From NCBI RefSeq assembly GCF_005234135.1, contig NZ_CP039965.1, forward strand, positions 744,001 to 808,000: 64,000 nt of DNA, given 5' to 3'. Below are positions 2,008 to 63,202 of this stretch, one piece after another. Position 1 is the first letter of the stretch; every line of letters starts with the position of its first letter. Both the position numbers and the translations under genes were made by a program. Origin of the DNA: Pseudorhodobacter turbinis (GTDB taxonomy: Bacteria; Pseudomonadota; Alphaproteobacteria; Rhodobacterales; Rhodobacteraceae). The notes beneath the pieces were generated by a model. The model was not told the origin of the DNA and searched no databases. It saw nothing but the letters and a program-made list of their open reading frames with translations.

Positions 2008-2270
2008 CTTTGTTGCACAAATCGGCCTGAGGTCACACTTCCCCTAACCCCAGACGGATTTAGCCTACGACCACTGTATGGGGTATGCCGAGAGCTGTGA
2101 AGCCATTTAGGATCGCTGCGCGGATTTGGATCTCCGCAACCTGACGATCGAAGTCACGCGCGGAGAGGCGTTGACCGAGCAGTTTCATACAATGCATCCG
2201 CTGCCCGGCAGGGTTATGCGAAGCATGAGCCCGAAAGGGTTTGTCTCGACGCGGCTCCGGCGGTAAGGGG
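2008..2270 (-). mobile_element. IS5-family remnant #1 (3' end only)
   Basis: Reading on the minus strand, this matches the last part of the IS5 transposase also found at 10908-11501, 18575-19254 and 29774-30809 (MHC-MKLLGQ through to the ALGIP region), plus the right terminal repeat GGCTTTGTTGCACAAATC near 2008. The first three quarters of the element are missing. It is the most diverged of the four copies. It carries the shared 41 bp hairpin at 2199-2239, which breaks the frame between the VETK and MHCMK blocks. Confidence 0.75.
2199..2239 (+). repeat. Hairpin insert HP1 (41 bp)
   Basis: Order is CTGCCC, GGCAG, left stem GGTTATGC, loop GAA, right stem GCATGAGCC, CGAAA, GGG. It interrupts the IS5 transposase at a fixed site, and identical copies occur at 11100-11140, 19165-19205 and 30576-30616. 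It belongs to the hairpin family described in the findings. Confidence 0.8.
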
Positions 2271-9249: not shown

Positions 9250-9790
9250 CTGTTGAAGTGTTCCGTGGAGTAGGCGCGGGTGCGCGCCTCAAGCCTGAGG
9301 CGTGACTTCCCCTTTCCCCACGGGCTTCAGGCCACGCGAACGTTCTTGGCGATGCCTGACGCATTGAAGTGGTTTGTCGGCGCGATGCTGATTTGGGTTT
9401 CGCGGTCTGGATGTCTTGCCGCGATGCACTGCCTGAAGCCCTTCGGCGAACGCATCGCGGACTCTCGACCCGGCTTTGGGCGTCATAGCCGCCACCAGCA
9501 GTCCCCAAGCCGATCGCTTGCCCTTTGGGATCCGGACAGCCCGCGTCTTTTGCCGTCGCACAAGGTGGTGTAATCGGGCACCGCCCCGTTCAAGATCCGC
9601 CATCTGCAGCAAGCCGACAACCATACCTGGCGTCTGTCTCAGGGGCAGCTTGAACGGAGCCTGGATCGTGGCATCCCGAAAACCGCAGGGCGGCCAAGGC
9701 TTGCGCCAGCTTCTTTCCCTGTCCAGCCCCCCTCTCCCCCATGCAAGCACGCGGTGCTGGCCGGAAAAACAGACGAAGTCGGTTCAACAA
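9250..9790 (-). pseudogene. Degenerate IS5-family transposase
   Basis: Blocks matching the IS5-family element at 11865-13035 survive: KLPLRQTPGMV followed by LLQMADLE, RRQKT, and a C-terminal RDAFAEGLQ region. They lie in shifted frames with a large internal deletion between RRQKT and the C-terminal block. The N-terminal end (about 9735-9775) keeps a degraded hairpin insert at the same place as HP4, with GGGGAGAGGGGG still visible on the minus strand. No function is possible. Confidence 0.6.
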
Positions 9791-11099: not shown

Positions 11100-11140
11100 C
11101 GCTGCCCGGCAGGGTTATGCGAAGCATGAGCCCGAAAGGG
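11100..11140 (+). repeat. Hairpin insert HP2 (41 bp)
   Basis: Same sequence and same insertion site as HP1, HP8 and HP12, within IS5 remnant #2. Confidence 0.8.
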
Positions 11141-11340: not shown

Positions 11341-11352
11341 TACCGGCCAACG
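11341..11352 (-). repeat. Hairpin insert HP3, half element at a deletion junction
   Basis: On the minus strand CGTTGGCCGGTA equals the first 12 bases of the 39 bp hairpin HP9 and lies at the same IS5 site. The rest of the hairpin and about half the transposase are gone, so the deletion began inside the hairpin. Confidence 0.65.
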
Positions 11353-11864: not shown

Positions 11865-12019
11865 GGGCGTTGTTGCAAAACTCTGACGGCAGGCGATTCA
11901 CAAGGTGAAACAATGCGGTTAGACAGGCTTTCATGAGCAAGCCCCCAATCGCCCGCTATCGCACGACGAACTGGAAATCCTACAACGATGCGCTGAAGCG
12001 CCGTGGTTCACTGTTGATC

Positions 12020-12056
12020 CGTTGCCCGGCAACGCATGCCTGCATGCGTGAGAGGG
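12020..12056 (+). repeat. Hairpin insert HP4 (37 bp)
   Basis: Sits between the ATC and TGG codons of a conserved GSLLI-W site. Core is TTGCCC, GGCA, stem ACGCATGC, loop CT, stem GCATGCGT, GAGAGGG. The 8 bp stem is perfect. HP9 lies at the equivalent codon boundary in the other IS5 lineage. Confidence 0.85.
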
Positions 12057-12362
12057 TGGTTGGACAAGGACATGATGTGGCTCGCCCCGAAGGCGGGCCG
12101 CCCTGGTCGCCCACCAGTGTTTTCTCCCGCCGCGATACAGTTCTGCCTCATGGTGAAGGTTCTGTTCAGCCTACCACTGCGGCAAGCGACTGGCATGGTG
12201 GGCAGCATCCTGCAGATGGCAGGCCTGGACTGGACGGTGCCCGACTTTTCGACCCTGAGTCGGCGACAAAAGACCATCACGGTGCAAATGTCGAACCGCC
12301 GTGCGCCGGGGCCTATGAACCTGCTGGTGGACAGCACGGGGATCAAGTTCTTGGGCGATGGC

Positions 12363-12403
12363 GCCCTCTCGGGCGATTGCGATGCAATCCCCTGCCGGGT
12401 AAC
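12363..12403 (-). repeat. Hairpin insert HP5 (41 bp)
   Basis: Minus-strand reading gives TACCC, GGCAG, GGGATTGC, loop ATC, GCAATCGCC, CGAGA, GGG. It interrupts the transposase between FLGDG and the KWLARKHG block just after the DSTGIK motif. Confidence 0.85.
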
Positions 12404-12590
12404 AAATGGCTTGCGCGCAAGCATGGCACACATCGCCGCCGCCAGTATCGTAAGGTGCATCTGGCGATGGATACTGCCACCGACGACATCCGGGCGGTGG
12501 AGTTCACCTCAAGCGACCACGGTGACAGCCCGGTTCTACCTCATCTTCTGGACCAGATCCCGCCCGATGAACAGATCGGCACAGTGACCG

Positions 12591-12627
12591 GTCCCTCACA
12601 TGCATGTAAACATGCACTGCCGGGCAG
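12591..12627 (-). repeat. Hairpin insert HP6 (37 bp)
   Basis: Minus-strand reading gives CTGCCC, GGCAG, TGCATGT, TT, ACATGCA, TGTGA, GGGAC. It interrupts the transposase between GTVT and DGAFDTRRCH. Confidence 0.85.
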
Positions 12628-13191
12628 TGGATGGCGCCTTCGACACCCGCCGTTGTCACACCGCGATCCTTGATCGAGGCGGCACCGCAGTCATCCCCAT
12701 TCGCAAGAATGGCCGCCGCTGGAAAGAGGATTGTCCCTCCGCCCAAGCCCGCAACGACATCCTCAGGGCGACCTAACGCCTGGGCAGGGCCATTTGGAAA
12801 CGCTGGTCCGGCTATCACGTCAGAAGTCGTATCGAGGCCGGGATGCGATGTCTCAAAGCATTCGGTGAGAGGATCGCGTCACGAGACCCCGACCGCCAAG
12901 CTGCTGAAGTCCATATCCGTGTGGCACTCATGAACCGCTTCAATGCACTCGGCACCGCCGAGATCGAACGCGTTGCCTGACCCAAAAGGGGAACGGGGAC
13001 GTCGCGTCTTAAAACCGACTTATGCAACAACGCCCATCAAAGGAACCGTTTGGGAAAAGAGGAGCCCCTTCCCGATGCGGCAATTTAATGGCCTGGTAAT
13101 CGGCCAATTAAAAAATACAAAAACAGGCCCAGATATAAAATAGCGCTGACAATAACCCCACTTAATAAAGGGAATACGTTTTCCGGTTTAG

Positions 13192-18813: not shown

Positions 18814-18830
18814 CTGCCCGGCAGGGCATT
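18814..18830 (+). repeat. Hairpin insert HP7, left part only
   Basis: CTGCCCGGCAGGGCATT, the left flank and part of the stem of the HP10/HP13 type, at the junction where the central transposase region is deleted. The rest of the stem is replaced by transposase sequence (GATGAGCAA). Confidence 0.6.
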
Positions 18831-19164
18831 GATGAGCAACGCTGGAAATCAGAGCAGTCGAGATCACGGGCAGCAATACCGGTGATGCACCGATGTTACC
18901 TCATCTGCTCAACCAGATCCCACGCGATCAGCAGATCGGCAGCGTAACTGCGGATGGTGCATACGACACGCGCCGATGTCATAACGGCATCGCCGAGCGC
19001 GGTGCGGCTGCGGTGATACCGCCACGCAAAAATGCCCGGCCATGGAAGCCAACCACTGCCGGGGCCATGGCCAGGAACGACGCACTCCGCGCATCAAGAT
19101 ATCTGGGTCGGGCACTCTGGCGAAACTGGAGCGGATACCTCCGCCGGAGCCGCGTCGAGACAAG

Positions 19165-19205
19165 CCCTTTCGGGCTCATGCTTCGCATAACCCTGCCGGG
19201 CAGCG
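19165..19205 (-). repeat. Hairpin insert HP8 (41 bp)
   Basis: Same insert and site as HP1, HP2 and HP12. It shifts the transposase frame so that translation ends 20 codons later. Confidence 0.8.
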
Positions 19206-29922: not shown

Positions 29923-29961
29923 CGTTGGCCGGTAGGCGATTACGTGTAATCGCCGTAAGGC
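29923..29961 (+). repeat. Hairpin insert HP9 (39 bp)
   Basis: Lies between the ATC and TGG codons of GSLTI-W. TTGGCC, GGTAG, stem GCGATTAC, loop GT, stem GTAATCGC, CGTAA, GGC. The 8 bp stem is perfect. The outer CCC/GGG pair of other members is GCC/GGC here, a paired change. Confidence 0.85.
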
Positions 29962-30058
29962 TGGTTCGGTCCCGAGATGAGCTGGGATGCCGAACCTTCC
30001 GGCAAGCGGGGCAGGTCGCGGACATTTAGTGACGCTGCCATCCAGACGTGCCTGACCA

Positions 30059-30099
30059 CTGCCCTCTCAGGCATTGCTGCGCACTACCCTGCCGGGCAG
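30059..30099 (-). repeat. Hairpin insert HP10 (41 bp) replacing part of the transposase
   Basis: Minus-strand order: CTGCCC, GGCAG, GGTAGTGC, GCA, GCAATGCC, TGAGA, GGGCAG. It joins CLT directly to DSTGIK, so about 180 bases of transposase are missing where it sits. Confidence 0.8.
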
Positions 30100-30196
30100 C
30101 GGACAGCACTGGCATCAAGGTCGAGGGTGAAGGCGAATGGAACGCCCGCAAGCACGGCGGCCCCAAGCGACGCGTCTGGCGCAAGATCCACATCCA

Positions 30197-30237
30197 CTGC
30201 CCGGTAGGCGATTGCAAAGCAATCTGCCGAGAGGGGG
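30197..30237 (+). repeat. Hairpin insert HP11 (41 bp)
   Basis: CTGCCC, GGTAG, GCGATTGC, AAA, GCAATCTGC, CGAGA, GGG, between the KIHI and IDEQ blocks. HP7 in copy #3 ends at the same IDEQ boundary. Confidence 0.85.
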
Positions 30238-30575: not shown

Positions 30576-30616
30576 CCCTTTCGGGCTCATGCTTCGCATA
30601 ACCCTGCCGGGCAGCG
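30576..30616 (-). repeat. Hairpin insert HP12 (41 bp)
   Basis: Same insert and site as HP1, HP2 and HP8, between VETK and MHCMK. Confidence 0.8.
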
Positions 30617-59686: not shown

Positions 59687-60362
59687 ATGGAATATTTTGC
59701 CGGAATAGACGTGTCACTGCGATCCTGTGCGCTTTGCATTTTTTATGGCAAGGGAAAGATACTGCTTGAGCGAGACCTGCCATGCGAGATCAGCGACATC
59801 GCTGAGTATCTTGGAACGTTTCCCCATCCGATTGAACGGGTTGGTTTTGAAGCGGGCACCATGAGCCAGCATCTGTTCCATGGCCTGAAAGCGGAAGGTT
59901 TTGACGTTGTCTGCATGGAAGCACGTCAGGTGAATGCAGCGCTGTCGGAAATGCGTTACAAGACAGACAAGAATGACGCACGCGGCATCGCTCAAGTACT
60001 GCGCACCGGTTGGTTCAGCCCTGTTCACATGAAGAGCCGCGAAGCGCATGGCGTCCGTGCATTGCTGAGCACCCGCAAAGCGCTTCTGAAGAAGACGATG
60101 GATCTCGCCAATGAGGTTCGTGGGCTGTTGAAGATTCTCGGCATTCGCCTGCCCATGACCGTGAAGCACGGCAGCTTTGACGGTGTCGTGCGACCGTTGA
60201 TCGAGATGGATGAAGTTCTGACCCACGCTTTGGTGCCGCTGCTGGATCCACGCGTGGCTTTGTATCAGCACTTTTTGGAACTGGATCGCAGGGTCAAACG
60301 CGCTGCCGGCCAAGATGAGGTGTGCATGCGGATGATGACGGTCCCAGGCGTTGGTCCTGATC
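59687..60362 (+). pseudogene. IS110-family transposase, 3' truncated at a hairpin junction
   Basis: About 225 codons of an IS110 transposase (D8 in GIDVS, E in GFEAGTMSQ, D and D in KTDKNDARGIA) up to the start of the C-terminal domain (MTVPGVGP). There a 41 bp hairpin (60364-60404) is followed by an IS5 transposase piece, and the C-terminal domain with the catalytic Ser is lost. The frame stays open into the IS5 part until 60523, so a chimeric 278-residue product could be read. Confidence 0.85.
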
Positions 60363-60363
60363 A

Positions 60364-60404
60364 TTGCCCGGCAGGGCATTGCGCAGCAATGGCCCGAGAG
60401 GGGG
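60364..60404 (+). repeat. Hairpin insert HP13 (41 bp) joining IS110 to IS5
   Basis: TTGCCC, GGCAG, GGCATTGC, GCA, GCAATGGCC, CGAGA, GGGG. It lies exactly between the end of IS110-type and the start of IS5-type coding sequence. Confidence 0.85.
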
Positions 60405-60812
60405 CAGACAAAGGGTGGTGTGAATACAAAGTGCATGCCGTCACTGACACCAGCGGTCGCCCGATCCGCTTCTTCATCACAGCTGGCCAAGTCAGCGATT
60501 ATACCGGTGCCATGTCCAGCTGAGTAGTCTGCCAGATGCGGAATGGCTGTTAGCTGACCGAGGCTATGATGCAGATTGGTTCCGTGAAGCTTTGTCAGAC
60601 AGGGCAACGCAGTCCTGCATCCCAGGTCGTAAGTCCCGCAATAAGGTCGTCAGATACGACAAGCGCCGCTACAGACGCCGCAACCGTATTGAATGGATGT
60701 TCGGCAGGCTCAAAGACTGGCGACGCGTCTCAACCCGATATGACCGATGTCCCAAGGTCTTCCTGTCAGCTATCGCTCTGGCCGCAACCCTCTTATTTTG
60801 GTTATATGTCCT
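60396..60812 (+). pseudogene. IS5-family (IS427-like) transposase, C-terminal half
   Basis: KVHAVTDTSGRPIRFFITAG, LLADRGYDADWFREA and RRNRIEWMFGRLKDWRRVST, close to the element at 39714-40230. A small frameshift lies near 60520 (after DYTGA). The N-terminal half is absent; IS110 sequence and a hairpin stand in its place. Confidence 0.8.
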
Positions 60813-60903
60813 GAACCTAACACCAAAGTGGCCCTAAGGTCGATGTTTTGCACCGAACATGAAGTCAAAGCACGATAATAAACTGTTCGGATTTATCCGG
60901 ACG

Positions 60904-63107: not shown

Positions 63108-63202
63108 TACCTATAAGACGACGAACTGGGCTGATTATAACGCGGCGTTAAAGCGCCGCGGATCACTGACGATCCGTTGGCCGGTAGGCGATTACGTGTA
63201 AT
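63108..63202 (+). mobile_element. IS5-family fragment (part 2 of a split copy), cut by IS3
   Basis: Continues exactly from the IS5 end at 54185-54268: CCTATAAGACGACGAACTGG then the transposase block NWADYNAALKRRGSLTI and the start of a hairpin (63175). IS3 copy 3 interrupts it. Confidence 0.82.
63175..63202 (+). repeat. Hairpin insert HP14, cut by IS3 copy 3
   Basis: The first 28 bases are identical to HP9 at the same IS5 site; IS3 begins within the right half of the stem. Confidence 0.78.

Follow-up and report, generated by a model that had tools for sequence, protein, structure and literature searches.

Why should the transposase gene of an insertion sequence (IS) be broken at three places by hairpins of about 40 nt, and how do such hairpins spread? 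The question is raised by the 64,000-nt stretch of Pseudorhodobacter turbinis DNA that was analysed here (the window; its genome, G000, comprises 4.25 Mb in four contigs), in which an IS5-family (ISPpa3-like) transposase gene at 11933..12980 (+ strand; PF01609, E = 1.3e-6, and alignment to locus L322) is split by elements of 37, 41 and 37 nt. The first, at 12020..12056 (+), is the one that a first-pass annotation of the window had singled out; it lies between ..TTGATC and TGG.., matches covariance model R2 (E = 2.2e-10; covariance-model E-values are rough throughout) and has an empty counterpart in L322. The second (12364..12404, −; model R1, E = 8.5e-13) represents a net insert of 41 nt relative to locus L110, and the third (12593..12629, −; R2, E = 3.4e-11) a net insert of 37 nt. 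This IS5 copy also contains one stop codon that is absent from copy L100.

We consider it fairly probable that these elements belong to a family of very small, non-autonomous, REP-like mobile DNA hairpins that break IS genes and ride on the IS copies. Mechanistically, an enzyme that cuts next to a short target motif would recognize the hairpin in single-stranded form, in a manner that may be comparable to that of IS200/IS605-type or REP transposases, and the spread of the hairpin would depend on IS copies that are moved in trans. No published description of the family was found in a search that covered few subscription papers, and the family is apparently undescribed.

Hairpin copies in the window

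The first-pass annotation had counted at least 14 whole or partial copies in the window, and ten of these are well supported by a covariance model, some with their starts shifted by 1–3 nt. Besides the three described above, four copies of 41 nt (each R1, E = 9.3e-13) are located at 2199..2239 (+), 11100..11140 (+), 19165..19205 (−) and 30576..30616 (−), the flanks of the copy at 11100 being identical to those of the other three. The remaining well-supported copies are one of 40 nt at 30062..30101 (−; R1, E = 1.4e-7), a 41-nt GGTAG variant at 30195..30235 (+; R1, E = 1.2e-14; net insert 41) and one of 41 nt at 60362..60402 (+; R1, E = 1e-14, and sequence). The last of these joins two genes in a chimera (59687-60837), where the 5′ part of an IS110 transposase gene (59687..60361, +; PF01548, E = 5.8e-16) reaches to the hairpin and is followed beyond it by the 3′ part of an IS5-family transposase gene (60403..60837, +), read by eye and matching the flanks of other hairpin loci in G000. 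An eleventh copy, at 29923..29964 (+; right end approximate), is weak and degraded (R1, E = 3.1e-4). Three of the claimed copies were seen by eye to be partial arms only, namely a left arm of the 29923 type at 11341..11352 (−), a truncated arm at 18814..18831 (+) and a truncated or degraded arm of the 29923 type at 63175..63200 (+; end approximate), and a degraded copy claimed near 9737-9775 was matched by neither covariance model. An Rfam scan of the window returned two tRNAs only.

A conserved fold with variable stems

The element follows the plan CRYTG-CCC-GGCAG-stem-loop-YGAGA-GGG and measures about 36–44 nt, mostly 37–43 nt. It starts with CRYTG, 5 nt ahead of CCC (TGTTA takes the place of CRYTG in one subfamily), and ends with GAGAGGG. 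Within the window, the pattern CCCGGCAGN{10,30}CGAGAGGG was matched twice versus 0.01 matches expected, and CCCKGCAGN{10,30}GAGAGGG had 51 matches across the whole of G000 versus 1 for the reversed pattern.

Long forms (n = 16) and short forms (n = 16) were aligned separately, their pairs were counted, and two covariance models, R1 and R2, were built. The sequences had been collected with a pattern that fixed CCC, GGCAG, GAGA and GGG and left the stem free, so that constancy at the fixed positions, including the outer CCC/GGG pairs of both alignments, is partly by choice. Five and six stem pairs were altered on both sides in the two alignments, and the covariation score was 0.357 (versus 0.072 shuffled) in one and 0.542 (versus 0.166) in the other; none of 500 shuffles scored as high, and on weaker measures the observed value was reached in 13 and 54 of 500 shuffles for alignment A2 and in 8 of 500 for A3. 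Slid pairings scored at most 0.058, below the observed value in both alignments. It is the pairing of the stem that is conserved and not its sequence, which bears out the first-pass description of stems that differ and still pair. Moreover, joint changes of the outer pairs were seen among copies found by the models, which were collected without a fixed pattern: CCT occurs with AGG at C1:7358 and GCC with GGC at C1:96135. In G000 the two models gave 96 and 107 matches (E ≤ 0.1), falling at 127 distinct places in 55 clusters; the first-pass annotation had proposed such a search for further copies, and it yielded more than 100 additional places in the same genome.

Wobble pairs provide a means of judging which strand folds. 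After the removal of eight loci that looked like chance matches on visual inspection (L162, L167, L170, L173, L175, L178, L188 and L235, which were likewise removed before the orientation counts below and were kept in the target logo), G.T wobbles on the element strand numbered 71 versus 9 for A.C, or 25 versus 8 with the closing pair left out, and a slight excess (10 versus 6, closing pair left out) was present in elements opposite to the coding strand. This excess weakly suggests that folding takes place in the CCCGGCAG strand. A pairing of GG(C/T)AG with C(A/G)TC was also considered, for which the set contains a single T variant.

Clean insertion directly 3′ of a short motif

The insertions distinct by sequence numbered 322, and an empty relative was present among the fetched loci for 125 of them; distinctness in both counts was defined by the element plus 10-nt flanks, so that slight variants of one insertion are counted apart. 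The net insert equalled the length of the element in 96 of the 125 comparisons and came within 1 nt of it in 119, and neither target duplication nor deletion was found at occupied versus empty sites. An initial comparison had found an empty homologue for 26 of 86 copies in G000. The hairpin is a clean insertion directly 3′ of the short motif YCRTC, missing from relatives, and the first-pass view of these sequences as inserted elements and not ancestral coding sequence is upheld. In the target logo (207 strict non-redundant matches), position −4 is C (.59), −3 is A (.53) or G (.31), −2 is T (.62) and −1 is C (.73), with little beyond −5; the scan pattern of the contigs fixed a T before TGCCC and a G after GGG, which inflates those logo positions and confounds the base right after the element.

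For example, sites 1 and 3 of the window IS5 are empty in a Paracoccus liaowanqingii plasmid copy (L322), and the target motif stays in the empty site. Similarly, the four-hairpin IS3 of genome G021, when set beside an intact 1197-bp copy on a Pseudosulfitobacter plasmid, contains inserts of 38, 40, 38 and 38 nt. At about 2455-2510 of L322, the place of the window IS5’s second hairpin, there are some 40 extra nt that lack the hairpin motif, and the IS is unannotated there. Among the 125 comparisons, the net insert modulo 3 was 0 in 34, 1 in 35 and 2 in 56, with no preference for frame, and approximately three-quarters of the insertions shift it.

Insertion directed by a motif would be expected to recur at the same positions, and in one IS3 transposase different genomes have hairpins at residues 6, 86, 189, 192, 215 and 227, the stems at a given residue mostly differing. 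At residue 227, two of the three hairpins have the same stem, and it is possible that some of the recurrent IS3 sites reflect common ancestry. Together, the exact ends, the target motif and the 125 occupied/empty comparisons make movement of the hairpin testable. The fetched loci yielded no occupied site with an empty relative of more than 86% identity, and movement in the present day is thus a possibility only.

Probable recombination at hairpins

Hairpins also stand at the joins of IS chimeras (window 60362; C1:271378), and at C1:271378 a stretch between two hairpins has apparently been lost that is still present at C1:497826-497939. Hybrid hairpins of left-left and right-right types occur at L061 (C1:929082) and L062 (C1:945560) of G000, as would be expected from crossing over in the palindromic stem, with the segments between inverted hairpins flipped. 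These chimeras and hybrids, the identical sites in different genomes (including the stem shared by two genomes at residue 227) and the lack of an empty relative above 86% identity would all agree with a history in which old hairpins spread among ISs through homologous recombination or gene conversion only, without the hairpin itself actively transposing. We nevertheless judge such a history to be quite unlikely, given the many non-homologous places and unrelated genes that are occupied, the 5-nt target motif that they have in common, the exactness of the ends and the stems that mostly differ at the same site.

Transposase genes as sites of insertion

A Pfam-verified transposase lies within 700 nt of 69 of the 82 distinct hairpin sites in G000 (113 of 127 copies), versus 4 of 60 random positions; the references for this count were all Pfam-verified, and many came from hairpin loci. 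Most of the other 13 sites were read by eye as IS genes. In the window, each of the 11 copies supported by a model is inside a stretch of verified transposase or no more than 18 nt from one, versus 23 of 218 YCRTCG sites; four of the transposase references for this comparison come from the window itself. A position inside the gene was seen in the empty-site alignments, and none of the sites read in G000 was recognized as intergenic. Pfam assigned transposases beside hairpins to IS3, IS5, IS6/IS240, IS66, IS91, IS110 and IS256, and the first-pass annotation, which had named two IS5 lineages and an IS110/IS5 join, was thus correct about transposase genes and too narrow in their range. IS21 may be a further target in G000, as read by eye at C1:123658 in an ORF without a Pfam match, and IstB_IS21 itself gave two matches, at loci outside G000. 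Among 105 new non-redundant loci, 69 match reference transposases, some of which are not Pfam-verified, and 36 do not. Both orientations occur, as had been noted for the window: relative to the transposase gene, 86 elements are opposite and 49 are in the same direction, so that no single transcript strand is required.

The first-pass account saw no copies in host genes of the window, where the model-supported copies lie by transposases; elsewhere, a few are located outside IS genes. For example, two (pro)phage contigs from IMG/VR have a hairpin at one shared position of a C5-cytosine methylase gene, with a net insert of 36 nt in L164 (8880-8916) that is in frame and stop-free and leaves the gene open, and a frame-breaking net insert of 53 nt in L183 (5556-5594), where an additional C-rich stretch lies beside the hairpin. 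This site is empty in the other 79 of the 80 homologous loci kept (352 found). Another exception is a hairpin found at the 3′ end of an ornithine cyclodeaminase gene or close by. With one hairpin as query, no match was found in 50,697 records of deposited phages. In other genomes, ORFs close to hairpins (alignment A4) had Pfam matches to RelE (2), phage portal protein (1) and DAO (1), genes that the hairpins may or may not interrupt.

The predominance of IS genes may reflect the survival and carriage of insertions there, a targeting of insertion to IS DNA, or both. Survival in dispensable, self-copying DNA accounts for part of the preference, and not for the fact that no copy in G000 was recognized as intergenic. 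A more far-reaching proposal, which we regard as doubtful, is that hairpins are written selectively into transposable-element DNA, either as hyperparasites on IS transposition intermediates or as an insertional anti-transposon system. If true, bacteria would have their own counterpart of repeat-directed transposon mutation, achieved by inserting a self-copying 40-nt hairpin at YCRTC, and insertion directed at IS genes would constitute a new route for silencing bacterial transposons. An anti-transposon system, whether of the host or borne by an element, would put hairpins into IS DNA (e.g., into circular or single-stranded intermediates) and so inactivate transposases. Such a system would be in keeping with the excess of hairpin sites over random positions beside verified transposases, with the unrelated IS families struck, and with the finding that, in both lineages studied in detail, a single IS gene bears three or four hairpins and its coding segments were intact before the copies diverged. 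However, no candidate system was found, the (pro)phage methylase in two contigs and the 3′ end of the ornithine cyclodeaminase gene were also struck, and survival on mobile copies could yield part of the pattern, all of which make an anti-transposon role unlikely.

Multiplication and decay of hairpin-bearing copies

IS copies that already carried hairpins have multiplied, as shown by the multiple copies of a hairpin-laden IS5 and a hairpin-laden IS3. The window IS5, with its three hairpins, is represented in G000 by two full-length and three partial copies of 99–100% identity, which have in common the hairpin sites that they span; a search of G000 for a hairpin-free relative gave no stretch of more than 200 nt above 75% identity (40 of 92 candidates scored). 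In G021, contig C1 contains six full copies of the four-hairpin IS3 (L121 and L151-L155) at different places, all with the same four hairpins, which lie in two orientations, and with perfect 3-bp duplications in three of the six. All coding segments of this IS3 are open, and no hairpin-free full-length copy was found among 36 scored candidates. For an IS to gather three or four hairpins while its coding segments stay intact, either the rate of insertion must be high or the hairpin must be tolerated.

Substitutions among the hairpin-bearing copies look neutral, like those of dead genes. The ratio of nonsynonymous to synonymous changes (N:S) was 12:3 among the six IS3 copies, including loss of the orfA start codon, with a neutral share of synonymous changes of 0.26–0.29, and 12:8 among the five copies of the window IS5, where stops and indels occur in single copies and a 1-nt insertion is common to two. 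The IS lineages were under constraint before their copies diverged: codon N:S on the earlier branch was 11:47 for the G021 IS3 versus 5:43 in its hairpin-free sister, and for the window IS5 it was 10:43 versus 9:40 in one sister and 11:53 versus 11:29 in another. The simplest reading is that the hairpins came late and broke the genes, and that the copies then moved in trans or were duplicated, which requires several hairpin insertions per IS within a short time. Copies that have TACCTGGCAG hairpins in common were also tried as a test of selection, and they proved to be mosaics of decayed genes and unusable.

It is also conceivable that the hairpins are skipped or removed at the RNA level, as intron-like elements or by translational bypass, and that the transposases stay functional. 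The low N:S on the earlier branches would be compatible with such a process, as would the six G021 IS3 copies that bear four hairpins between open coding segments and have no hairpin-free full-length counterpart. Yet the hairpins occur in both orientations within the same gene, the one opposite to the coding strand being the commoner, and the copies diverge as they would without selection, with a start codon lost, stops and indels; this mixture of orientations and later decay speaks against hairpin-bearing genes having worked for long. Moreover, the sole phage gene that is open has a net insert that keeps the frame. Skipping or removal in RNA is accordingly disfavoured and, in our estimation, very unlikely.

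Distribution among genomes and plasmids

When G000 and 60 relatives were scanned with a simple pattern, 28 of the 61 genomes had at least one match. The matches cluster within the same genus and family, and some of the single ones look like chance. A scan of contigs, in which at least 120 stretches matched and 80 loci were kept, included many Rhodobacterales genera among the matches listed, together with some Cohaesibacter, Labrenzia, Rhizobiaceae and other alphaproteobacterial contigs; its Verrucomicrobiota match looks like chance.

Plasmids are also well represented. For one IS5 copy of the window genome, the best plasmid matches come from Paracoccus, and Rhodobacterales genera account for most of the 261 plasmid records matched. 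One hairpin used as query matched 47 PLSDB plasmid records, from genera that we take to be all Rhodobacterales, and plasmid-borne hairpins are present in cultured roseobacters such as Dinoroseobacter shibae, Ruegeria pomeroyi and Phaeobacter. The best match in these 47 records had no annotated feature in 43, fell in an IS3 transposase in two and in a hypothetical protein in one, and the remaining record was unannotated; the 43 unannotated places suggest why such ISs get missed.

Search for a mobilizing enzyme

The first-pass annotation had looked to a RAYT or Y1-type transposase as a partner for the hairpins, and no Y1/RAYT gene was found in G000 (Y1_Tnp, PF01797: 0 matches). PF01797 is present in 10 of the 61 genomes, and among the seven richest in hairpins it is absent in G000, G002, G008, G010 and G021, marginal in G006 and strong in G015. 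In these searches no RAYT/Y1 gene was associated with the hairpins. G015, the second most hairpin-rich genome, encodes a Y1 transposase gene with an open frame of 243 aa at L327 (C30:29535-29888), and no hairpin of the family occurs in the 3.35 kb fetched around it. When a partner gene was sought by its recurrence beside hairpins in 80 named loci, the clusters that matched references were all transposases, and five clusters of 4–5 loci had no reference match. It is possible that a Y1 supplier has since been lost or that the enzyme is of another kind. The ends of IS91 were rejected as an origin of the hairpin, since those of two near-identical IS91 copies are unlike it.

Comparison with known systems

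Short hairpins that split coding sequences in large numbers are known from the mitochondrial byp elements of Magnusiomyces, which the present family resembles in this respect; unlike byp elements, these hairpins lie on either strand, in copies that diverge without visible selection, and give no sign of being skipped. Rickettsia palindromic elements likewise represent palindromes within protein genes of Alphaproteobacteria, but they are longer and are kept in frame in functional genes, whereas all three length classes are present here.

IS200/IS605 elements insert cleanly 3′ of a fixed short motif, without target duplication and with recognition of hairpins. The hairpins described here share insertion 3′ of a short motif without duplication with these elements and their palindrome-associated derivatives, but each consists of one hairpin of about 40 nt only, and no Y1 gene was found in five of the seven hairpin-richest genomes.

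CGTC-tagged REPs are widespread short palindromes of Alphaproteobacteria for which no transposase of their own is known; they are described as having CGTC as the end of the repeat, stems that begin with A-T pairs and a CCA-like tail (PMC3733652). In the present family, by contrast, CRTC belongs to the target and stays in the empty site, and the element ends in GAGAGGG; with neither a terminal CGTC nor a CCA-like tail, it is a different repeat, and its assignment to CGTC-tagged REPs was rejected.

Finally, the hairpins invite comparison with GTAG REPs and their RAYTs. They differ from GTAG REPs in having no GTAG tag, in their conserved 3′ YGAGAGGG and outer CCC/GGG pairing, in residing in IS genes where REPs are mainly extragenic, and in that most hairpin-rich genomes have no Y1 gene; REPs reported inside RAYT genes keep the frame (PMC6006769). 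An unpaired GTAG is not seen at the 5′ foot, where C stands in 206 of 207 strict non-redundant matches (GGCAG or GGCAA) and T in one (GGTAG), in a scan that allowed C or T only. In Alphaproteobacteria, REP-like palindromes for which no transposase is known pose a standing question (PMC3733652). The present family has much in common with GTAG REPs: a single hairpin of 20–40 bp that is multi-copy and thought to be mobile, with a variable stem and conserved unpaired bases 5′ of it, here GGCAG.
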